In this document: piece by piece, positions 1,732-34,929 of the stretch | How the letters are laid out: the number at the start of each line of letters is the position of its first letter | Numbering within the stretch: the first letter of the stretch is position 1 | Assembly: GCA_008704415.1 (NCBI GenBank) | Contig: VXIS01000365.1 | Span: 1-44,676, forward strand | Origin: Sphaerosporella brunnea | Taxonomy: Eukaryota > Ascomycota > Pezizomycetes > Pezizales > Pyronemataceae | Direction: 5' to 3' | DNA length: 44,676 nt | Translations under genes and position numbers: made by a program | The notes under the pieces: generated by a model | Told to the model about the DNA's origin: nothing | Seen by the model: only the letters and a program-made list of their open reading frames with translations | The model's database searches: none

Positions 1732-1758
1732 CTGTTTCAACTGTTTTTTAAGGGGAAG

Positions 1759-2269
1759 TGTAAGATTATTACACTTAGTATGATTCTTTCTTACGTATTT
1801 CCTTACTAAGATATAAAACTATATGGCAGTAACGATGGTATGATGACAGCATTCTACGAGTTTCCATTACTTTCTTTACTATGTTTTGTCACCATGTTTC
1901 TAGCACTTTCTAGCTTCTTCGATGCTACGTCACTTTGGAATCTTCTAGTTTCCACAAGGCAGACTTGTAGGTCTTCTAGACCACTCTTTCCTTGGTTACG
2001 AATTTGCCACCAGATTGTTATCACATGATGTACTCAGCATTGTTGGCTATAAAAGCTGCGAGCTTTTCCTACACTCATTCTTTTCTCTTCTTTCGATACG
2101 GCCTTTCGAGCAGCCCAGATTGTATCGACTATCATCAATAAATACTGAGTTGATCAGTGACCTGAGTGCGAGTATTCTCTTGGTATTTATCAAGTCTGAT
2201 ACACAAACGGTTCTGAGTTTATTTGCATCTGTGAAATAGCGGATCTTATAAGCTCACGAAAAGGTTACA
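1759..2269 (+). repeat. 3' LTR of outer chromovirus
   Basis: It starts TGTAAGATTA right after a purine tract (AAGGGGAAG, 1750-1758). The proposed end at 2269 (GGTTACA) gives about 511 bp with TGTAA/TTACA ends. A TATA box (CTATAAAAGC, near 2048) and an AATAAA at about 2138 are placed as expected for LTR transcription start and polyadenylation. The 3' border is less sure than the 5' border. Confidence 0.68.
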
Positions 2270-2485
2270 CGAAGCAGCGGCTGAAATAACTGCAAGAAAC
2301 CCCGCGTGTCAGGCAAGCCACCCTCTTTTCTATTGATGTCGGGTGTGATCGTGCTCGTTGGGTTACTGGGCGCACCACAATAACAATAAAGTCTTGAACG
2401 ATAGACTTGGCAGTGCCAGTACCTCCATCTGTCGCTATTGGGCTCGGGGTGGAGGAATGCCTCATGACGCCCATCTAGGGCACAC

Positions 2486-2630
2486 TGTTGAAATTCTGTG
2501 GAGCTTGCGCAACCAGTGAGCGATGAATAGTGAGGCTGGATGACACGGGTTTTTAAGTAGTTGTTAGCACTAGACTTTAACCCGAATACCAATCACGTTT
2601 ACGCCTCTAAAACCTGCTCGTATTCTAACA
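2486..2630. mobile_element. Solo LTR-like element (copia-type ends) with 5 bp target duplication
   Basis: A 145 bp segment starts TGTTGAAATT and ends ATTCTAACA, giving TGTT/AACA termini, and is flanked on both sides by CACAC (2481-2485 and 2631-2635). TG...CA ends plus a 5 bp direct repeat are what a solo LTR leaves after recombination. It could instead be a small non-autonomous element. The 216 bp between 2270 and 2485 hold nothing I recognise. Confidence 0.6.
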
Positions 2631-2787
2631 CACACCATCAGGGCTTGTCAATTATTAGGGCAGCCCACTTATCAGGGCGCTTAAGCCACCACCTCGTCTT
2701 CGCACTTCCCAAACATCTCTCCCTCCTAGACACTACGTGTCTCGGTTTGCCACTTCCTCCCACTTCCCCAGTCTCCCTCGGTCCTAG

Positions 2788-3735
2788 ACACTACATCGTC
2801 TCGCCACCACTCAACCATCCCTTCCGTGGATAATCAGGCGTGAACGGCTCGCGCAGCCACTTGGCAACGTGAAACCTCATATTCTGCTAGCCGAGCTGGC
2901 CATGACCCGCGGATGGATGCCCGGTGAGCAGCCACAAGGCTAGAGCTGTGCACGGGGCGACGGGTCGGGGCGCGGGCGGGCGGGGTGCGACGAGGTGGGC
3001 CGGGGCAGCGCGGGGTGATCGGGGTTGAGCGGGGTCATCGGGGTGTGACGGGGCATAGCCGCGGCGGGGTGTATCGGGCGCATCGGGAGGACCGGGGTTC
3101 CGACGGGGCGGCCGGGGCAGCGACGCGGTGGCCGGGGCAGCGACGAGGTGGCCGGGGCGCCCCGACCCGTGCACAGCTCTACACAAGGCCCCAACCACAA
3201 CCCGGCGCGTTGGGCACGGGCACTCATTGCCCTCTCCAACGACGTCCAGTTGTCGGTGGTGTGGCCTGGGCTGTTTCAGGGACCAAACCAGGTTGTGGAA
3301 GGTTCGCGTCTGTATGTGATCATAACTCAATTAATCTCCCTGGGGTTCGCTGGCATCAACAAGCGAAAGCGCCGTCCGGTGGTGGTCCCTCGTCCTGTTC
3401 CTGCGCACATCGCTCTGGTCCTGCCCAGCGCGGTGCCTCCCGCCCCAGTGCAGCCACAGCAGCCACAGCAGTCAGTTGTCCCGCAGCACGTTCAGGCGAT
3501 TCACAGTCAGCCAGTCACGCTTTTTAATCGACAGACCACGCTTCATAGGAGCCAGGTTCAGATTAATGGGAGCCTGCAAGATAGAAGCAACACCCAGCAG
3601 CTGATCTGTGACGGCCAGAGAGACTTCCTCGAACAGCAGGAGGCGAATGCCGATGTCCAGCATGGTCGCGATCAGGAGTACAAAGCCCAGTTCAGGCAGC
3701 CTAACGTATGTGGCTGCGCTCCCCATATTCTTTGA
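2788..3735 (+). pseudogene. Unknown coding frame interrupted by a hAT MITE
   Basis: Frame 1 is open after a stop at 2785, runs through an ATG at 2902 (MTRGWMPGEQPQG...), is hit by a TAG that is the first codon of the MITE at 2941, and resumes in the same frame after it (NHNPARWARALIALSNDVQL...) to a stop at 3733-3735. MITE plus one target copy is 249 bp, exactly 83 codons, so the frame before and after matches. The second half turns Pro/Gln-rich near 3430-3480 and then coiled-coil-like. The even reading across the insertion site argues that this was a real gene. I do not recognise the family. Confidence 0.55.
2941..3181. mobile_element. hAT-type MITE with perfect 8 bp target site duplication
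   Basis: A 241 bp GC-rich element begins TAGAGCTGTGCACGGG and ends CCCGTGCACAGCTCTA, a terminal inverted repeat of the hAT kind (the left arm has a short insertion). CACAAGGC occurs directly outside both ends (2933-2940 and 3182-3189), the 8 bp duplication expected for hAT. The inside has short G-rich direct repeats (GGCCGGGGCAGCGACG) and no transposase, so it must be moved in trans. Confidence 0.9.
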
Positions 3736-5187
3736 TATAGGCTGACCTTGGATAGGCCAAATTGGACGCGCTGGCCCGTCGAAAGGCTGATTAGCAAAAA
3801 AAGAAACTGTCAAGGCGCTATTTTTTTCGCATCGACTTGGTATGGTATTTTCGCCTTCCATTCGCCGTTTTGCCGCAATAGGCTAACGTTGGACTCGGCC
3901 TAGGTGGAATGTCATCTTGCCACAGAGGAGGCATGTGTTGAGGTTGAGTTGAGCGTTTGTGTCTCGGCGCAATGATTTGCACGCGATGATGGTGTATGGT
4001 TAAGGAGCTGGTGTATCGCGTGTTTTCAGTTTCGACCCGTAGGGTAACGTGTTAATCTACTGGATACAACGCAACATTGTTCCGATCCCACGTTACTTCA
4101 ACACTTTCATTTTGTATTTGCATGTCTCTAGACGATTCTGATCCATCTTCTGCGACTCACGTCACGACGCTGGCACACATCAGCCGGAACGTTACAATCG
4201 CCAAGACGCAGGATCGAAATGCCTGGCTGGCGCTACAATGCAAGTCTAAGAGCTACTACAAGCGCAAGAGAGCGTGGGAGATTCTAGCCTTTCCTGCCCA
4301 AGCCACCCGAAATCGCAGGAACACTGGTGATACTGGCATATGCCCCAGCATTCAAAAGCGGTCGATAAGCCTGGTACAAGTCCTGAGTGGCCAAAAAATG
4401 TTTATCACCCTCATACGGCACAATTCGGGTGTTCCTGCATCCCTCGCTACCAGCCAGTCCTCGCACTGGCTCGCAACCCGTGAACTCTGGGTCCGCACTT
4501 ACCACTTCACAAAGCCCCGCTCTATCAGCGCCATTTGGTAGCTATTGCACTGCGCATTTGGTTGTGCTGGTAGCGGTCAGTGACGAGCTTTCTAACGAGG
4601 GAGGCTTAATAGTGCTTAAGAATCACTCGACTTCAGGCATTCGGATTCCATAGTAGCGCTCGGTAATAACTTTTTCGACTTTACTGGCTCAGCTGGAGGT
4701 GAACTTCTCGAATCCGTTCGAATATCGATGTATCGCACACGACCCGATATTGTTCTAGTAGGCGTCTTTGTTATTTGTTTGTTTGTCTTGGATGGAAGGC
4801 AATAAAATTGACCGTCACTCTCAATTACGTACCTAGTTGTTCAACGCATCTTTCTTTTGATTCAACTCTGCCTTTTGATCTGGCCCGTTCTCCGACTTGC
4901 TCTCGGGAAAGGTCAACCTTTGCTTAGTCCATACAGCGATCGTAATGCTTAGCCCCAACACGGTCCTTACGCGACTTTCACGCGAGTGAAACCATTTATC
5001 GGGTTCCCAATAACTCTCGATGGTGAATGTGTGGGGATACTGCGTTTTGAGGCAGTTGAACGGGTGCTAGTGGACGAGGAACTTGGCGCATGCGCTCAGA
5101 CATCATGTAAAGGTGTGGTTGTGGGGTTATTGGTCTCGGAGCTTGAAAACGATGGCGACGGGTAGATCACCAGCTGCCTAGGCTGGC
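3736..5187. other. Gene-poor stretch with one weak ORF
   Basis: No firm gene is seen. A plus-strand frame at 4077-4541 (154 codons) has a plausible, basic stretch (SKSYYKRKRAWEILAFPAQA) after a Met at about 4122, but no recognisable domain, splice signal or promoter, so I do not call it. The remainder holds no repeat or structure that I could identify. Confidence 0.3.
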
Positions 5188-11685: not shown

Positions 11686-11839
11686 ATCTTGATTAAATAA
11701 AGAAACGGAACTGGGTAGGCTGGCGCAAACCCCACCCTAGGGCGTCGGCGATGTGGCTTCGGGGGAAGGAGGATCGCAGCAAGAGACAAGAAAAAGGAAA
11801 GGCTGCGGGTAAGAAAACACTCCCGCTGGCGGCATGTTT

Positions 11840-11900
11840 TTCAGGAGTGGTGAGGGCAGGAAGGTGCAATGGATTACTTACTGCCCTCACCACTCCTGAA
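11840..11900 (-). repeat. Perfect 20 bp inverted repeat over a splice donor, copy 1
   Basis: TTCAGGAGTGGTGAGGGCAG at 11840-11859 and its exact complement at 11881-11900, loop 21 bases. On the minus strand the 5' arm is the end of an exon and its last G is the first base of GTAAGTAAT, so the donor sits at the stem edge. Confidence 0.88.
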
Positions 11901-12141
11901 CAGAATCAAAACCGACCAAAGCGGGTGTAGCTTACTCCGGTGGCGGAGAAACCTGATGATGGATGAGGGATCTCCCTCGTAGGTAGCTGTCCAGCTTTTC
12001 TCAGCTTTCCGGTGCCGCAATGTGGGTTCTTCAGCTGCCGAGGGCGTCGGCGATGTGGCTTCGGGGGAAGGAGGATAGCAGCAACAGACAAGGAAACGGA
12101 AAGGCTGCGGGTAGGAAAACACTCCCGCTGGCGGCATGTTT

Positions 12142-12206
12142 TTCAGGAGTGGTGAGGGCAGGCAGGAAGGTGCAATGGATTACTTACTGCCCTCACCACT
12201 CCTGAA
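12142..12206 (-). repeat. Perfect 20 bp inverted repeat over a splice donor, copy 2
   Basis: Same arms as at 11840-11900, with a 4-base longer loop (25 bases). Both arms are unchanged although the surrounding 302 bp unit has diverged, which is notable. Confidence 0.88.
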
Positions 12207-12635
12207 CAGAATCAAAATCGACCAAAGCGGGCGTAGCTTATTCCGGTGGCGGAGAAACTTGATGATGGATGAGGCATCTCCCTCGTAGGCAGCTTTCCAG
12301 TTTTTCTCAGCTTTCCGGTGCCGCAATGTGGGTTCTTCAGCTGTCGAGGCCGGGTCGCAATCTCCGACAGTGTAGCTGGCGCTTTTGAGCCACAAAATCG
12401 ACGCGGTGGCTGGTGGATACCAGCTCGTGCGAGGAAAGGTCATAACCACAATTTGGCCGCTATTTGACCTCCCAAAAGATCCAAACCGTTGGCGGGAACT
12501 TAACGGGCTCACTGTTTGTGTGTAGAATGAGGTTGTCCACCGCCTTTGCCGAGTCGATAAATCGACCTCCCAGCTACACTGTAGAGGATAGCGGTAGAGG
12601 GAGAGAATTTGAGCTTCGAGAGATGCGGGTGCCAA
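12180..12635 (-). CDS. Unknown gene, exon with duplicated C-terminal module
   Basis: A 151-codon minus-strand frame of protein-like composition: SGQIVVMTFPRTSWYPPATA, then SASYTVGDCDPAS, then a module AEEPTLRHRKAEKNWKAAYE followed by SSIIKFLRHRNKLRPLWSIL and FRSGEG at a GTAAGT donor (about 12186). A second copy of the last module follows downstream at 11874-12137 with conservative changes, preceded by a possible intron ending CTACCCGCAG. I do not recognise the family. The start is uncertain; the reading opens in a non-ATG codon, so an upstream exon or leader is likely. Confidence 0.45.
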   Translation of the reverse strand: MAPASLEAQILSLYRYPLQCSWEVDLSTRQRRWTTSFYTQTVSPLSSRQRFGSFGRSNSGQIVVMTFPRTSWYPPATASILWLKSASYTVGDCDPASTAEEPTLRHRKAEKNWKAAYEGDASSIIKFLRHRNKLRPLWSILILFRSGEGSK

Positions 12636-16125: not shown

Positions 16126-16737
16126 TTAACAGCTGGCTACAAGAACACTGATCCCCACCACCACTAACCCTCCCCCGCCACCACCACCACCGTCATCGCC
16201 GCCCCACTCGCAGACCACCTGATTGAAGTTTGAGCCAGCTTTCCGAATCAGTTTCGTTGCTTTTGCACTCCGGGGTGGGTGGGGACTTACCAACGCATCT
16301 ACAAAACCAAGGAACAGGAAAACGAAAACCCAAAGTCCTCCGCAGCCACTGCAAACCAGAAAGCCTGCCCGGCTCCGGCCGGCGGTTGGGGGCCAGGTGA
16401 GTATGGAGGCCCCCAGTCGGGATATTGATGGTCTGAGTTCTGGGAAGGCGGGGGAGGAGGGGGGGAAGGAGAATGACCACACCCCCGTGGCTTGTCGAAA
16501 CTCTGTTTTCTTGCCAGATCCAGCCTGAGGTTGGGGGCCAGGTAGGGAGGGCCCCCCAGTTGCATCATTGATCGCCTGAGCGAGGTTCTGCGACTGGGGG
16601 CCTGGTGGGTAACGAGCGGGCCCCCAGTCGCAGCAGCATTGATCAGCTGAGCCATCTTGTCGGCGTCGAAACGCTTCTTCTCCTCGGGGGCGAGAAAACG
16701 CGGCTGGAGTCGGCGGAGGGCCCCCCAGTTGCAACAT
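16126..16737 (-). CDS. 3' end of array gene, two exons, Gly-rich hydrophobic C-terminus
   Basis: The minus-strand frame leaves the repeat array (PQSQNLAQAINDATGG), passes a unique Pro/Gly/aromatic part and LWVFVFLFLGFVDAL, and reaches a GTAAGTCCCC donor at 16290. The 72 bp intron (16290-16219; ACTGATTC branch-like, AATCAG acceptor) is in phase 0 and is itself open, so retention would add 24 residues and keep the frame. The last exon encodes VVCEWGGDD, eight glycines and LVVVGISVLVASC, then stop. The hydrophobic end could be a membrane or GPI-type tail. Family unknown. Confidence 0.45.
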   Translation of the reverse strand: MLQLGGPPPTPAAFSRPRGEEAFRRRQDGSADQCCCDWGPARYPPGPQSQNLAQAINDATGGPSLPGPQPQAGSGKKTEFRQATGVWSFSFPPSSPAFPELRPSISRLGASILTWPPTAGRSRAGFLVCSGCGGLWVFVFLFLGFVDALVSPHPPRSAKATKLIRKAGSNFNQVVCEWGGDDGGGGGGGGLVVVGISVLVASC

Positions 16738-19160
16738 TGATCGCCTGAGCGAGGTTCTGCGACTGGGGGCCTGGTGGGTAACGAGTGGGCCCCCAGTCGC
16801 AGTATTGATCGTTCTGCGACTGGGGGCCTAGTAGGTAGTGAGTGGGCCCCCAGTCGCAGCAGCATCGATCAGCTGAGCCATCTTGTTGTCGGCGTCGAAA
16901 CGCCTCTTCTCCTCGGGGGCGAGAAAACGCGGCTGGAGTCGGCGGAGGGCCCCCCAGTTGCAACATTGATCGCCTGAGCGAGGTTCTGCGACTGGGGGCC
17001 TGGTGGGTAACGAGTGGGCCCCCAGTCGCAGTATTGATCGTTCTGCGACTGGGGGCCTAGTAGGTAGTGAGTGGGCCCCCAGTCGCAGCAGCATCGATCA
17101 GCTGAGCCATCTTGCTAGCCTTCCCGGCGCCGAAACGCTTCTTCTCCTCGGGGGCGAGAAAACGCAGCTGGAGTCGGTGGAGGGCCCCAGCCGCAGCATC
17201 GATCGTTCTGCGACTGGGGGCCTAGTAGGTAGTGAGTGGGCCCCCAGTCGCAGCAGCATCGATCAGCTGAGCCACCTTGTTTGGCTTGTCGGCGTCGAAA
17301 CGCCTCTTCTCCTCGGGGGCGAGAAAACGCGGCCGGAGTCGGTGGAGGGCCCCAGCCGCAGCAGCATTGATCAGCTGAGCCATCTTGTCGGCGTCGAAAC
17401 GCTTCTTCTCCTCGGGGGCGAGAAGATGCGGCTGGAGTCGGTGGAGGGCCCCCCAGTTGCAACATTGATCGCCTGAGCTGGGTTCTGCGACTGGGGGCCT
17501 GGTGGGTAACGAGTGGGCCCCCAGTCGCAGTATTGATCGTTCTGCGACTGGGGGCCTAGTAGGTAGTGAATGGGCCCCCAGTCGCAGCAGCATCGATCAG
17601 CTGAGCCACCTTGTTTGGCTTGTCGGCGTCGAAACGCTTCTTCTCTTCGGGGGCGAGAAAACGCGGCTGGAGTCGGTGGAGGGCCCCAGCCGCAGCATTG
17701 ATCAGCTGAGCCATCTTGTTTGGCTTGTCGGCGTCGAAACGCTTCTTCTCCTCGGGGCTGGAGTCGGCGGAGGGCCCCCCAGTTGCAGCATTGATCGCCT
17801 GAGCTGGGTTCTGCGACTGGGGGCCTGGTGGGTAACGAGTGGGCCCCCAGTCGCAGTATTGATCGCCTGAGCGAGGTTCTGCGACTGGGGGCCTGGTGGG
17901 TAACGAGTGGGCCCCCAGTCGCAGCAGCATCGATCAGCTGAGCCATCTTGTCGGCGTCGAAACGCTTCTTCTCCTCGGGGGCGAGAAGATGCGGCTGGAG
18001 TCGGTGGAGGGCCCCCCAGTTGCAACATTGATCGCCTGAGCTGGGTTCTGCGACTGGGGGCCTGGTGGGTAACGAGTGGGCCCCCAGTCGCAGTATTAAT
18101 CGTTCTGCGACTGGGGGCCTAGTAGGTAGTGAGTGGGCCCCCAGTCGCAGCAGCATCGATCAGCTGAGCCATCTTGTCGGCGTCGAAACGCTTCTTCTCC
18201 TCGGGGGCGAGAAGATGCGGCTGGAGTCGGTGGAGGGCCCCCCAGTTGCAACATTGATCGCCTGAGCTGGGTTCTGCGACTGGGGGCCTGGTGGTTAACG
18301 AGTGGGCCCCCAGTCGCAGTATTGATCGTTCTGCGACTGGGGGCCTAGTAGGTAGTGATTGGGCCCCCAGTCGCAGCAGCATCGATCAGCTGAGCCACCT
18401 TGTTTGGCTTGTCGGCGTCGAAACGCTTCTTCTCCTCGGGGGCGAGAAAACGCGGCTGGAGTCGGTGGAGGGCCCCCCAGTTGCATCATTGATCGCCTGA
18501 GCGAGGTTCTGCGACTGGGGGCCTAGTAGGTAGTGAGTGGGCCCCCAGTCGCAGCAGCATCGATCAGCTGAGCCATCTTGTTGTCGGCGTCGAAACGCCT
18601 CTTCTCCTCGGGGGCGAGGAAACGCGGCCGGAGTCGGTGGAGGGCCCCAGCCGCAGCATCGATCGGCTGAGCCATCTTGTTGGCTTGTCGGCGTCGAAAC
18701 GCCTCATCTCCTCGGGGGCGAGAAAACGCGGCTGGAGTCGGTGGAGGGCCCCTCCAGTTGCAGCATTGATCGCCTGAGCTGGGTTCTGCGACTGGGGGCC
18801 TGGTGGGTAACGAGTGGGCCCCCAGCCGCAGTATTGATCGTGCTGCGACTGGGGGCCTAGTAGGTAGTGAATGGGCCCCCAGTCGCAGCAGCATCGATCA
18901 GCTGAGCCACCTTGTTTGGCTTGTCGGCGTCGAAACGCTTCTTCTCCTCGGGGGCGAGAAAACGCGGCTGGAGTCGGTGGCGGGCCCCCCAGTTGCATCA
19001 TTGATCGCCTGAGCGAGGTTCTGCGACTGGGGGCCTAGTAGGTAGTGAGTGGGCCCCCAGTCGCAGCAGCATCGATCAGCTGAGCCATGTTGTTCGCCTT
19101 CTCGGCGTCGAAACGCCTCTTCTCCTCGGGGGGCGAGAAAACGCGGCTGGAGCCATAGCC
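16550..19160 (-). repeat. Exonic tandem array, about 14 units of 97-237 bp
   Basis: The word CTTCTCCTCGGGGGCGAG (minus: EEKKRFDA in one frame) recurs about 14 times between 16676 and 19117, at intervals of 97-237 bases. Units carry an AQLIDAAATGG segment, a hairpin (CTGCGACTGGGGGCC ... GGCCCCCAGTCGCAG, perfect 15 bp arms, for example 16588-16633), an AQAINVATGG segment and the KRFDADK segment. Units are not a multiple of three, so each minus-strand frame shows the same peptides in turn and most frames stay open for 60-260 codons (longest 17371-18156). Unequal exchange is the likely cause of the size variation. Confidence 0.9.
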
Positions 19161-22255: not shown

Positions 22256-23590
22256 GCACGTGTCACCAACCTCCACGAACCACCCCACCACTCAACCACC
22301 ACCAGTAAACGCCGTACATCCGAACGCCGACGCCCCAGGAATGGCGCTGGAGCGTTGACGAGAGTCTCGGTGTCACCCAGCCGCCAAAGTCTCCTGCCGA
22401 ATTGCAGCGGGGGAGATTCCGGATCCCCCTCCCCCCAAAATCTGGGTGTAAGCTCGATCTACCGCTCGCACTGACGTCTTCGGATGAGACAGACCCCCGG
22501 ATGGCATAGGTCTCCGTCAATCCTCGGCGGAGGAGCTCGCAGCCTTCGCCGGAGTCCTCGATCAGAAGCGGGCGGTGGAAGGGGGAAGAGAGGATCGGTA
22601 GCTGCCGATGCCACCCAGCCAAGCGATTGGGGGACAGACGTCCTGGATCCCCCGCCCCCTCCCCCAATCTGGCTGTAAGTTCAATCTACCGCTCTGCAGC
22701 CGGTACTGACGCAGTGGCATAGCAATCGGATAACTGCTCAATGCAGGCACTCGGGCCACCCGGGGAGGGGGGTAAAAAACTAAGTGACCGCCTGGCATGT
22801 CACCGGTAAGTGCGATCTAAACAGCTTCGGCTGCGATAGCGGTGCTGACGCATTCAGCGGACGATCTCGACTGTCGAGGATATACCTGCCTCCCACACGA
22901 GCATCACGCAGCTGGTGTTCCGACCCGGCGATTCGATGGCCAGAAGAAGCTCTGCAAGGAGGGAGGGACTCCCTCCTGCGGGTGATGGTAAGTACATCCG
23001 TGCTGCCGAACGCTGAGAGAGACTGACAGCTACCAGCAGCCGGAATTGGTGCAGCCAAAGGGCTGCAAATCTTGCCTATGTGGTTTTCCCCACCCGGCCA
23101 GTCGACGCCCAGAAGAAGCTCTGGAACGAGGGAGGGACTCCCTCCCGGCGGTGTTGGTAAGTACGTCCGTGCTGCTGAACGCTGAGAGAGACTGACAGCT
23201 ACCAGCAGCCGAGCCGGAACTGGTGCAGCCAAAGGGCTGCAAATCTTGCCTATGTGGTTTTCCACACCCGGCCAGTCGACGCCCTGGAAGGAGGGAGGGA
23301 CTCCCTCCCGGCGGTGTTGGTAAGTACGTCCGTGCTGCCAACGCTGAGAGAGACTGACAGCTACCAGCAGCCGGAACTGGTGCAGCCAAAGGGCTGCAAA
23401 TCATGCCGATGTGGTTTTCCACACCCGGCCAGTCGACGCCCTGGAAGGAGGGAGGGACTCCCTCCCGGGGGTGTTGGTGAGTACATCCGTGCCGCCGAAC
23501 GCTGAGAGAGACTGACAGCTACCAGCAGCCGGAACTGGTGCAGCCAAAGGGCTGCAAATCTTGCCTACGGGCAATGTTGTCAATAGCTAG
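22256..23590 (+). CDS. Multi-exon gene with tandemly duplicated exons, about 320 residues, unknown function
   Basis: Exons: 22256-22447, 22510-22674, 22723-22805, 22858-22987, 23040-23156, 23209-23319, 23371-23476, 23529-23590. All seven introns are 48-62 bp, start GTAAG or GTGAG, carry CTGAC and end AG. Joining them gives one open frame to TAG at 23588. Exons 1 and 2 are duplicates (RVSVSPSRQSLLP / VSVNPRRRSSQPS; GSPSPQNLG / GSPAPSPNLA). Exons 4-8 are copies of another unit (PEEALQGGRDSLL, PEEALERGRDSLPAVL, ALEGGRDSLPAVL), with indels that make exons 6-8 use other frames and still stay open. Exons 5 and 7 share PELVQPKGCKSC. No ATG is found in exon 1, so a further 5' exon is likely. No known domain. 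Confidence 0.7.
22858..23590 (+). repeat. Tandem exon-intron modules, about 155-170 bp x 5
   Basis: Four nearly identical introns (GTAAGTACGTCCGTGCTGC to GACAGCTACCAGCAG) and five related exons alternate. The exon carries the stem GGGAGGG-ACT-CCCTCCC (for example 23130-23146), 10 bases before each donor. Differences between copies are a 5-base insertion (CCGAG), an 11-base deletion and few substitutions, so duplication is recent. Confidence 0.92.
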
Positions 23591-29780: not shown

Positions 29781-29840
29781 AGCTCGAGCAGCGGGTAAGG
29801 TTTTTCCATTGCGAGGAGCGGTTTTTGGCGTCCACCCATT

Positions 29841-30077
29841 ACCGTCACCGACCCGCTCGATCTCACCGTGGCGGGCAATGCCATTGCCCGCCAACATGGC
29901 ATCGGAAGGATCGACATCGTCGAGAACCGCTTCATCGGGTTGAAGTCACGTGGCTGCTACGAGACCCACGGTCTCAGTATCATGCGCTCTGCGCAAATTG
30001 ACCTCGAGGGTCTCGCCCTCGACCGTGAGGTCCGTCCTCTCCGGGACCATACCTGCGGCCGGGTCCCTGAGCAATAA
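29841..30077 (+). pseudogene. Argininosuccinate synthase fragment, copy 1
   Basis: [20 protein letters not shown] then [20 protein letters not shown] and [17 protein letters not shown] match the conserved C-terminal part of eukaryotic argininosuccinate synthase (the ATP-dependent citrulline plus aspartate ligase of arginine synthesis). Only about 60 of roughly 410-420 residues are present. It then runs into unrelated sequence and a stop. The palindrome GCGGGCAATG-C-CATTGCCCGC is at 29871-29891. Confidence 0.85.
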
Positions 30078-30282
30078 AGACCCGGCCGATCGACTCACGA
30101 CCTATCACTGGCAGCCCAGACAGCCGGCTCGTCGGCATTTTAGACAGGCCGGCCCGGCTTTGTTGGGAATGCCGCCCGGCGTATCATCCATCACCCCAGC
30201 ATCGAGTCCCGAGCGGGGTTCGGGAGTAATCCTGAACCCCGCTCAGCTGGCCACCTCGCTTGCCTGTCCCGACCCTCTCGAG

Positions 30283-30474
30283 CACTTCGTGGCGGGCAAT
30301 GCCATTGCCCGTCGGCACGGCATCGGACGTATGGACATCGTCGAAAACCGTTTCATCGGTTTGAAGTCACGTGGTTGTTATGAGACCCACCGTCTCAGTA
30401 TCCTGCGCGCTGCGCATATAGACCTGGAAGGTCTTATCTTGGACCGTGAGGTCCGTGCTCTCCGTGAGCATACC
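30283..30474 (+). pseudogene. Argininosuccinate synthase fragment, copy 2
   Basis: Same segment ([20 protein letters not shown], then [17 protein letters not shown]) in another frame from copy 1. It is followed by the hairpin segment [16 protein letters not shown] and then copy 3 at a distance of exactly 289 bases. Confidence 0.85.
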
Positions 30475-30568
30475 ATCCATCACCCCAGCATCGAGTCCCG
30501 AGCGGGGTTCGGGAGTAATCCTGAACCCCGCTCAGCTGGCTACCTCTCTTGCCTGTCCTGTCACTCTC

Positions 30569-30763
30569 GATCTCACCGTGGCGGGCAATGCCATTGCCCG
30601 CCAACATGGCATCGGAAGGATCGACATCGTCGAAAACCGCTTCATCGGGTTGAAGTCACGTGGTTGTTATGAGACCCATGGTCTCAGTATCTTGCGCGCT
30701 GCGCATATAGACCTGGAGGGTCTTGTCTTGGACCGTGAGGTCCGTGCTCTCCGTGAGCATACC
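30569..30763 (+). pseudogene. Argininosuccinate synthase fragment, copy 3
   Basis: [20 protein letters not shown] ... [17 protein letters not shown], in the third frame. Nearly identical in DNA to copies 2 and 4. Confidence 0.85.
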
Positions 30764-30854
30764 ATCCATCACCCCAGCATCGAGTCCCGAGCGGGGTTCG
30801 GGAGTAATCCTGAACCCCGCTCAGCTGGCTACCTCGCTTGCCTGTCCTGTCACT

Positions 30855-31049
30855 CTCGAGCACTTCGTGGCGGGCAATGCCATTGCCCGCCGCCACGGCA
30901 TCGGCCGTATCGACATCGTCGAAAACCGATTTATCGGTTTGAAGTCATGTGGCTGTTATGAGACCCACGGTCTCAGCATTACGCGCGCTGCGCATATTGA
31001 CCTCGAGGGTCTCGCCCTGGATCGTGAAGCACACCCGCTCTGTGACCGT
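30855..31049 (+). pseudogene. Argininosuccinate synthase fragment, copy 4
   Basis: [20 protein letters not shown] ... [17 protein letters not shown], 289 bases after copy 3. An Arg-to-Cys change (KSCG for KSRG) and degeneration at the end. Confidence 0.85.
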
Positions 31050-31258
31050 ATTAGCGGTCGGTGGTGATATGCCGGGCAGTGTTCCCAATAAAGCCGACGG
31101 GCTGTATAAAACGATGAGCGTGCTGCCTGAGCTGCGAGTGATATAACGTGAGTTCAATCGGCTGGGTCTTTATTACTCATGGACCCGCGAGCATCAAGCC
31201 CCGAGCGGGAGTTCAGGAGTAATCCAGAACTCCGCTCACTCCTGCAGGTAAAGATCCC

Positions 31259-31440
31259 CTGGGATCTCTTTTTGGCGGCCAATGCCATTGTCCGCCACCA
31301 CGGTATCGGGAGAACTGACACTGTCGTGAACCGATTCATTGGTCTCGAATGCAGTGGATGCTACGATATCACCGGTGGTCTCACCATCCTCCGGTGAGCT
31401 CATATAGACCTCGAAGGCTTCGTCTTGGACCGTGAGGTCC
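31259..31440 (+). pseudogene. Argininosuccinate synthase fragment, copy 5 (most diverged)
   Basis: WDLFLAANAIVRHHGIGRTD ... GGLTILR, TGA stop, then AHIDLEGFVLDREVPLL in the same frame. It keeps DLFLAANAI and GLTILR, which look closer to the ancestral gene than copies 1-4, but has an internal stop. Confidence 0.8.
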
Positions 31441-31459
31441 CTCTCTTGTCCAGGGTCAC

Positions 31460-33523: not shown

Positions 33524-33782
33524 CATGGTATTTGCTTCTGCGGTCGCGACCGCAGCTCCTCGTCTTTTGTCTCCCCAGGAATCGGTTTCTCCTCTCCGCA
33601 GACCTCGCGTCCATCCGAAGCCGTGGAGCTGCATGTGGTCAGCTTGCTGCACCCGAGGCAAGCCACTACCACTCCACCTCACCCCCATCTCACTCCCACA
33701 CCCCCACTCCACCCCGAGACCCAGGTCTCACCATCCTCCGCCACGCCCGCATCGACCTCAAGGGTCTACCCCTCGACCGTGA
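33524..33782 (+). CDS. Unknown gene start carrying argininosuccinate synthase DNA
   Basis: The ATG in strong context opens MVFASAVATAAPRLLSPQES and a His/Pro-rich stretch to a TGA at 33780-33782. The argininosuccinate synthase sequence at 33712-33805 lies in another frame. A GTAAGTTCC donor at 33900 and a TTCCAG acceptor at about 33950 suggest that the gene continues, but I could not carry one frame into them. Confidence 0.35.
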
Positions 33783-33805
33783 GGTTCATGATCTCCGCAT
33801 CACCA
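33712..33805 (+). pseudogene. Argininosuccinate synthase fragment, copy 6
   Basis: RDPGLTILRHARIDLKGLPL then DREVHDLR. This is the last third of the unit repeated at 29.8-31.4 kb. It keeps the conserved PGLTILR that copies 1-4 have lost (HGLSI), so it derives separately from the parent gene. Confidence 0.78.
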
Positions 33806-34066: not shown

Positions 34067-34929
34067 CGCATTGATCTTCGGCTTTCGCGTACGCCCCGCA
34101 TTGGCGGGGCGTACCAGCAGTACTACACGTACGAGCACCCCAGAGATGGGGCTGCCTCTTGAGCTCAAGCTCAGTCCTTTGGCACAGGGGCGCAGACGCG
34201 CCAAACAGCCGCCAATTCCCGCAAACCACGCACACCCCCGACCTAACGCGATTCTGTGTTTGCCCTCAGGGGCTTCTGCACGCGGGAGCTATCGGTAAGT
34301 TCGCGACTCTGAGGACTGTTTTACCACGACCGCGATATTGACTGTTCTGTGCAGACTCCCAATGTTTCGGAGTCGCCGACTCCAAACTGCACCTGAAGTT
34401 TGGGCCGGGTCGACCGGATCGGTGGGTTGGCGGGGCGTACCAGCAGTGCTACACGTGCGAGCGCCCCAGAGATGGGGCTCTTGAGCTCAAGCAGTCCGTT
34501 GGCACAGGCGCGCAGACGCGCCAAACAACCGCCCAACCGCCAATTCCCGCAAACCACGCACACCCCCGACCTAACGGGATTCTGTGTTTGCCCTCAGGGG
34601 CTTCTGCACACGGGAGGTATCAGTAAGTTCGCGACTCTAAGGACTGTTTAACCACGACCACGATACTGACTGTTCTGTGCAGACTCCCCAGGTTTCGGAG
34701 TCGCCGACTCCAGCGACAGACTCGCGGAGTTGGCCAGAACGTTCTCGATCTCCTCATGGACGCTCCACCGAGGGGGCTAGCGCTAGTGAGGCTGGATTTG
34801 GCCGCCAGGCCACCAACGGCCTGCAAGCGTCAACCCCCTTATCTTTCAGCAGACGAGCACCAACCTGGTACACAGCGCCACCTGGGCGTCACCAAACCCG
34901 CCTTCCCCGCTCTAGGCCGCTACCACTGA
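34067..34929 (+). CDS. Spliced gene on duplicated exon-intron modules, unknown function (5' end open)
   Basis: Exon A ends ...CVCPQGLLHAGAI at 34294; intron 34295-34354 (GTAAGTTCGCG, TATTGACTG, GTGCAG). Exon B (34355-34622) reads DSQCFGVADSKLHLKFGPGR, then GGAYQQCYTCERPRDGALEL and ends GASAHGRYQ; intron 34623-34682 repeats the first. Exon C reads LPRFRSRRLQRQTRGVGQNV, LDLLMDAPPRGLALVRLDLA and on to GVTKPAFPALGRYH and TGA at 34927-34929. Phases fit at both junctions. The duplicated DNA is used in different frames in A, B and C. An ATG at 34051 (MRSSVRIDLRLSR) lies in a frame that is shifted by a 4-base difference, so the true start is uncertain. Confidence 0.5.
34089..34114 (+). repeat. Perfect 11 bp inverted repeat
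   Basis: GTACGCCCCGC and GCGGGGCGTAC, loop 4 bases. Only the right arm is kept in the second copy of the module (34430-34442). Confidence 0.85.
34104..34700 (+). repeat. Tandem duplication, about 325 bp x 2, containing an intron
   Basis: GGCGGGGCGTACCAGCAGT opens both units (34103 and 34430), and each runs through the same exon part, the word CTTGAGCTCAAGC, a CTAACG...CCTCAG stretch, GGGCTTCTGCAC, a 60 bp intron and TTTCGGAGTCGCCGACTCC. Confidence 0.92.

Follow-up and report, generated by a model that had tools for sequence, protein, structure and literature searches.

Tandem duplication of intron-plus-exon units in an annotated orphan locus of Sphaerosporella brunnea

How did a single orphan locus of the soil fungus Sphaerosporella brunnea (Pezizales) come to hold a row of seven introns, several of them almost the same, and does the unit that they interrupt encode a protein? 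Seven intron-like elements were found at 22256-23590 of the window (that is, the whole stretch of 44,676 nt that was analysed). An earlier note on this DNA had read the locus as a rapidly changing protein of 320 residues, enlarged by duplication of exon-plus-intron modules and open through all seven introns.

The elements lie on the forward strand, as do the exons, repeat copies and gene models described below: intron 1 (22448-22492), intron 2 (22675-22722), intron 3 (22806-22857), intron 4 (22988-23036), intron 5 (23157-23205), intron 6 (23320-23367) and intron 7 (23477-23525). Each of the seven, even among the older and more diverged ones, has a donor, a branch and an acceptor motif. Six fit a strict pattern, GTRAGT..CTGAC..YAG (the donor of intron 7 being GTGAGT), and the exception is intron 1, which reads GTAAGC..CTGAC..CAG. 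In 300 random sequences, first-order and matched to the local 1.5 kb in composition, the strict pattern was found 0.03 times on average and once at most. Over both strands of the whole window it occurs 10 times against an expected 1.2, with six of the 10 inside the locus. The seven introns with splice signals of the earlier note are thus borne out by six strict matches where 0.03 would be expected, plus a seventh with GTAAGC.

Introns 4-7 are contained, one each, in four copies of a unit of ~160 bp, which together form an array of ~650 bp: copy A (22931-23100) with intron 4, copy B (23101-23274) with intron 5, copy C (23275-23431) with intron 6 and copy D (23432-23567) with intron 7, the similarity of D to the other copies ending near 23567. 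In the alignment of the four copies the intron is nearly letter-identical and the exon parts are close, and the similarity is continuous across exon and intron. Several indels set the copies apart. The exon part of B has 5 nt inserted; C and D differ from B by 11 nt (12 nt relative to A), the 5′ exon part of C being 11 nt shorter than that of B; at the edge, A and B are offset by a 1-nt gap; and the intron of C has lost 1 nt. The second unit with almost identical introns and the 5- and 11-base indels proposed earlier were both recovered in this alignment, the unit as one of four copies. Short exon hairpins also occur in the repeat copies at 22931-23567, among them GGAGGGAG/CTCCCTCC on the 5′ side of the donor.

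Judged by sequence similarity, introns 1 and 2 are a second, older family, to which intron 3 probably belongs as well. None of 10,000 shuffles matched as well as introns 1 and 2 match each other, nor did any for introns 2 and 3 (4 of 10,000 when the donor-to-branch part alone was used), whereas the resemblance between introns 1 and 3 is weak (764, or 228, of 10,000 shuffles as good). No resemblance was found between introns 1-3 and intron 4, for which 1737 to 4874 of 10,000 shuffles were as good. With the branch motif omitted, the pairs of introns 1 and 2 and of introns 2 and 3 were each equalled by none of 3000 shuffles, against 37 to 2190 of 3000 for presumed-unrelated pairs; for intron 3 against five presumably unrelated introns (intron 4, two near 34 kb and two near 26 kb, which served as the yardstick), the range was 37 to 1314 of 3000. 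The exons were compared likewise. The tails of exons 1 and 2, which precede introns 1 and 2, are 81% identical over 43 nt (none of 1000 shuffles as good), so that the 3′ part of exon 2 (22493-22674) is a duplicate of the 3′ part of exon 1; what had been described as duplication of the two exons holds for these 3′ parts. No similarity was found between exon 3 and exon 2 (201 of 1000 shuffles as good). Duplication of intron together with exon was therefore found for introns 4-7 and for introns 1-2, and for intron 3 in the intron part only. Taken together, the intron shuffles and the exon-tail comparisons divide the seven introns into two families.

Near-identity of introns 4-7 could also arise if mobile introns (that is, introner-like elements or proliferating stwintron-derived introns) had been inserted repeatedly. 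The genome of the fungus was searched for copies elsewhere in its own assembly, of 640 contigs and 50.57 Mb. A DNA search that skipped very common words found no match to 23121-23567 or 22256-22940 outside their own contig, and a 30-base intron/acceptor pattern of introns 4-7, with up to three mismatches allowed, had four matches in 50.6 Mb, all within the array, which is not the dispersal of near-identical introns among unrelated genes that marks introner-like elements. At the protein level all seven matches lay at 22256-23590. Since the repeat includes exons, with similarity extending into those that flank the introns, and no copy was found outside the contig, tandem duplication of DNA rather than insertion of mobile introns is indicated; mobile introns were ruled out on these two grounds and are given hardly any weight. 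Of the earlier proposals, tandem duplication of intron-plus-exon units as the mode of growth, a recent process in the case of introns 4-7, is accordingly well supported, with similarity that spans exon and intron in a unit found on its own contig only.

An assembly error, giving a wrong copy number or a spurious array, was also considered. Tandem repeats are error-prone, the copy number is as assembled, and the 640 contigs and 50.57 Mb analysed differ from the published 872 contigs and 51.6 Mb (PMC6908789). Against such an error, the available part of the genome paper describes PacBio sequencing of 10-kb libraries at about 908x, Falcon assembly and Arrow polishing, together with poly(A) RNA-seq and JGI annotation (PMC6908789), while the array is just ~650 bp long and its copies differ from each other by substitutions and indels. 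Misassembly is unlikely, and extremely so in our estimate.

The annotation uses only some of these introns. The coding model FN846DRAFT_446382 (hypothetical protein P0002, 200 aa; 22741-23590) runs from the ATG at 22741 to the TAG at 23588-23590 with introns 3-7 removed, and P0002 is 100% identical over its 200 aa to the translation from that ATG with introns 3-7 spliced out. Introns 1 and 2 precede the ATG and are not part of the coding model, which may be purely ab initio. Exon 1 had been drawn in the earlier note at 22256-22447; position 22256 is merely the base that follows a stop, and the 5′ end is a candidate. If intron 1 is spliced to its nearest acceptor (22492), translation from 22256 meets a stop in exon 3 at the end of 144 codons; a separate frame, which opens past a stop that closely follows intron 1, continues to 23590 for 261 codons (277 with intron 6 retained). 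The far acceptor at 22509 gives 325 codons. For both the 325- and the 261-codon frames the first in-frame ATG is that at 22741, residue 126 of the longer frame, and the product would therefore be 200 aa. Only when intron 1 uses its far acceptor is one frame thus open across seven introns, and its earliest start codon is in exon 3; the 320-residue product, which needs the far acceptor (325 codons) and lacks an ATG before residue 126, is not sustained. The shared end at 23590 stands, as a TAG.

The frame could nonetheless belong to a real, fast-evolving orphan protein, in which duplication adds exons and frame changes supply new peptide segments that are retained. The annotated 200-aa model exists; the 261-codon frame is open; and copies A and C share a frame in 109 of 109 aligned columns, for which the chance is ~1/3. 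What keeps A and C in one frame is that two indels, the 5-nt insertion and an 11-nt deletion, offset one another, although either alone breaks the frame. Copy B is in the frame of A in 54 of 120 columns and copy D is in frame with A or C in none of 84 aligned columns, and the spliced lengths of copies A, B and C (121, 125 and 109 nt) are none of them divisible by three.

How much the open frame itself says was estimated by simulation of random sequence with the same repeat plan (3000 trials). The probability of a run of at least 261 codons was 0.015 (1.5% of simulations) under the local unspliced composition, 0.003 under whole-window composition, and 0.30 (0.27 in a separate run) under the composition of the exons themselves, a null that is lenient and partly circular; composition explains the openness only partly. 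Across the array exons, the three forward frames contain 1, 0 and 1 stops, and the reverse strand 3, 1 and 2, so that the openness is not tied to one forward frame.

Relatives and domains were sought. A search of the spliced 261-codon frame against 5.8 billion proteins (3171 candidates sharing short words) found no homologue at E<=1 except P0002 itself, and none at E<=1 was found for a 206-aa ORF on the reverse strand. Against Pfam, neither P0002 nor the reverse ORF nor the open stretches of the other two spliced forward frames scored above a family cut-off; the only sub-threshold match was zf-CCCH_3 (E 0.065; 13.8 bits, where the cut-off is 31). The idea that the locus had captured a piece of a known protein gene, of the sort seen at 29.8-31.4 kb on this contig, was rejected on the lack of a Pfam match above cut-off and of a homologue of the reverse ORF.

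Nor do the changes among copies point to constraint. Where three or more copies contribute a letter to an alignment column, variation is seen in 14 of 109 columns for exons and 4 of 49 for introns (Fisher p = 0.59); once the first 28 columns, which adjoin the 11-nt gap, are left out, the exon figure is 8 of 93 (p 1.0); exon divergence equals intron divergence, and greater conservation of exons was not found among copies A-D, with few changes and low power. The synonymous share of same-frame changes (5 of 13 between A and C, 0.5 of 8 between A and B, and 1 of 3 between B and C) is close to the random expectation of 26%, and sparing of amino acids was not found in these comparisons, again with few changes and low power. 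The codon score of -0.06 carries no coding signal in what is a weak test: 60 of 98 spurious ORFs equal or surpass it, 8 of 76 held-out long-ORF chunks score no higher, and the other two forward frames score above the annotated one. The hexamer score is -0.10, against 0.35 ± 0.14 for long ORFs on their own training set and 0.07 ± 0.18 for those held out. In both tests held-out true chunks broadly overlap the negatives, and the training ORFs were chosen mechanically. A constrained protein is unlikely, and a fast-evolving orphan protein appears a rather doubtful reading of the locus. The rapidly changing protein suggested earlier thus finds no support in exons that vary as their introns do, in changes that look neutral or in forward frames that are all nearly free of stops; the locus would seem to lack a protein function.

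Candidate RNA products were assessed as well. Covariance models of Rfam gave zero matches, on which a known structured RNA was rejected, and no tRNA genes were found in the window. The folding z-score is -3.0 for the spliced transcript and -2.9 for unit B unspliced (-1.9 spliced), and +0.4 for the 3′ part of exon 1, +1.2 for exon 2, +0.4 for exon 3, -0.4 for exon 4 and -0.6 for intron 4. A functional RNA structure was set aside, this mild folding excess being all that pointed to it; short GC-rich inverted repeats may explain the excess.

The surroundings bear on a further possibility, an untranscribed, satellite-like array whose splice motifs were inherited from a dead gene and whose gene model is an ab initio artefact. 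The contig is gene-poor and rich in arrays, and retroelement-type domains lie at its left end (SH3_Tf2-1 and Chromo at 1-546, and Chromo at 1225-1650, by Pfam). Coding-like segments make up 11% of the window against 35% of 20 sampled 10-kb pieces, a contrast that is overstated as the model was trained on the sample, and in one of those pieces (L018) the figure is 0%. The window has five sites of tandem arrays with a period of at least 60 (9 TRF rows), against two (4 rows) in the 200-kb comparison sample, which consists of one stretch from each of contigs C1-C20 and is not random. A second tandem duplication (34101-34712; period 328, 1.9 copies) carries one intron-like GTAAGT element per copy (34295-34354 and 34623-34682) and is spanned by the annotated orphan P0003 (FN846DRAFT_1025319, 232 aa). 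That model seems to skip, with a GTACGAG donor at 34129, a stretch of the first copy that is read in the second, and the choice looks to be the program's. Against a dead array stands the full set of donor, branch and acceptor motifs kept in seven of seven introns, even the diverged ones, and we consider this reading improbable.

The window contains 33 hairpins of 11 or more pairs, of which the array at 16588-19066 accounts for 18 and 22256-23590 for none; the 200-kb sample contains 21. The array in question (16585-19152) is built from a unit of ~226 bp rich in CTGCGACTGGGGGCC hairpins, 18 of them with stems of at least 11 pairs, and in the genome search it matched its own contig only. At 11739-12349 lies a two-copy repeat of 306 bp with a hairpin of 21 or 23 pairs in each copy, for which the genome search found no match outside the contig.

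Six related pieces occupy 29835-31445 and 33715-33797. The first matches the C-terminal domain of argininosuccinate synthase (PF20979), and the other five are linked to the piece at 29835 through DNA or protein similarity; three of them, from 30269 to 31061, constitute a 289-bp tandem array (array span 30185-31012). A related open segment with 74% DNA identity to these pieces is found on another contig (C102:22003-22209). With small variation, a hairpin of 11 pairs, TGGCGGGCAATGCCATTGCCCGCCA, recurs in three of the synthase pieces (29869-29893, 30579-30603 and 30867-30893) and is not present in the C102 segment, the sole outside sequence compared, in which the left arm differs by eye; the arm in the pieces looks as if copied from the right arm. 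Homogenisation of arms through template switching has been described in yeast, in the part of that report available (PMC8604942), and the TGGCGGGCAATGCCATTGCCCGCCA hairpin would fit such a process; a link to duplication is a guess.

The reading that we favour, with somewhat better than even confidence, is that of a spliced transcription unit, an annotated orphan of S. brunnea, which grew head-to-tail and whose product is a non-coding RNA or a young, unconstrained frame, probably not a selected protein. An older duplication would have given introns 1 and 2, and probably intron 3, and a recent round introns 4-7. Each piece copied in the recent round would extend from the middle of one exon across the intron to the middle of the next, and a head-to-tail duplication with end points in exons would copy a whole intron every time. 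As the copied piece carries a complete donor, branch site and acceptor, it could be spliced immediately and would need no newly evolved splice sites. The transcript could in this way lengthen by splice-ready copies, and the younger round would have left the near-identical introns. Transcription and splicing of the locus are presumed here from its signals and its annotation. Short inverted repeats are present in the repeat units; hairpins with template switching are proposed as the trigger of duplication purely as a guess.

A broader version of this proposal would make the contig a gene-poor, retroelement-flanked hot spot that repeatedly copies intron-bearing pieces into new multi-intron transcripts, with introns as the unit of growth, coding acquired later or never, and a possible contribution from template-switch hairpins. 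It is offered as speculation, with a low probability of being right.

Intron gain by tandem duplication is a known kind of event, and the S. brunnea locus is a case of it with many copies. Gao and Lynch reportedly treated internal gene duplication in eukaryotes in 2009, including intragenic duplication that creates exons and introns, to which the likeness is one of class alone. In a potato case, a close analogue, as far as the available portion of its description goes, direct tandem duplication of the upstream intron-exon structure likewise added an intron plus its splice signals; there, one intron was added to a known protein gene, with a partly cryptic donor and 10 nt of upstream exon, whereas here up to seven introns are present in an orphan locus and whole introns were copied. 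In the AGGT model, tandem repeats inside a gene also yield introns, in fungi among others, but the excerpted account has the intron built from exonic repeats via proto-splice sites (PMC3443670), while in S. brunnea existing introns are copied intact. Fungal introner-like elements and sister stwintrons are similarly described, in the portions available, as highly similar introns within a fungus (PMC8469720, PMC4457414); these are found in many different genes, whereas the copies found in S. brunnea form one array and include exons. Few intron gains are both recent and traceable to a source, according to the parts of two reports available (PMC4974935, PMC3629103). Among the records listed from open-licence PMC, no report on the 22256-23590 locus of S. 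brunnea was found, and both its copy number and the presence of two intron families in one locus seem unusual.

Seven introns thus lie within 1.1 kb, in two families, with the younger copies nearly identical and a second case 11 kb away. Apart from its value for watching copied introns this is an ordinary orphan locus; for that purpose it is a good place, where the immediate splicing of copied introns, and transcripts that precede protein function, may be followed.
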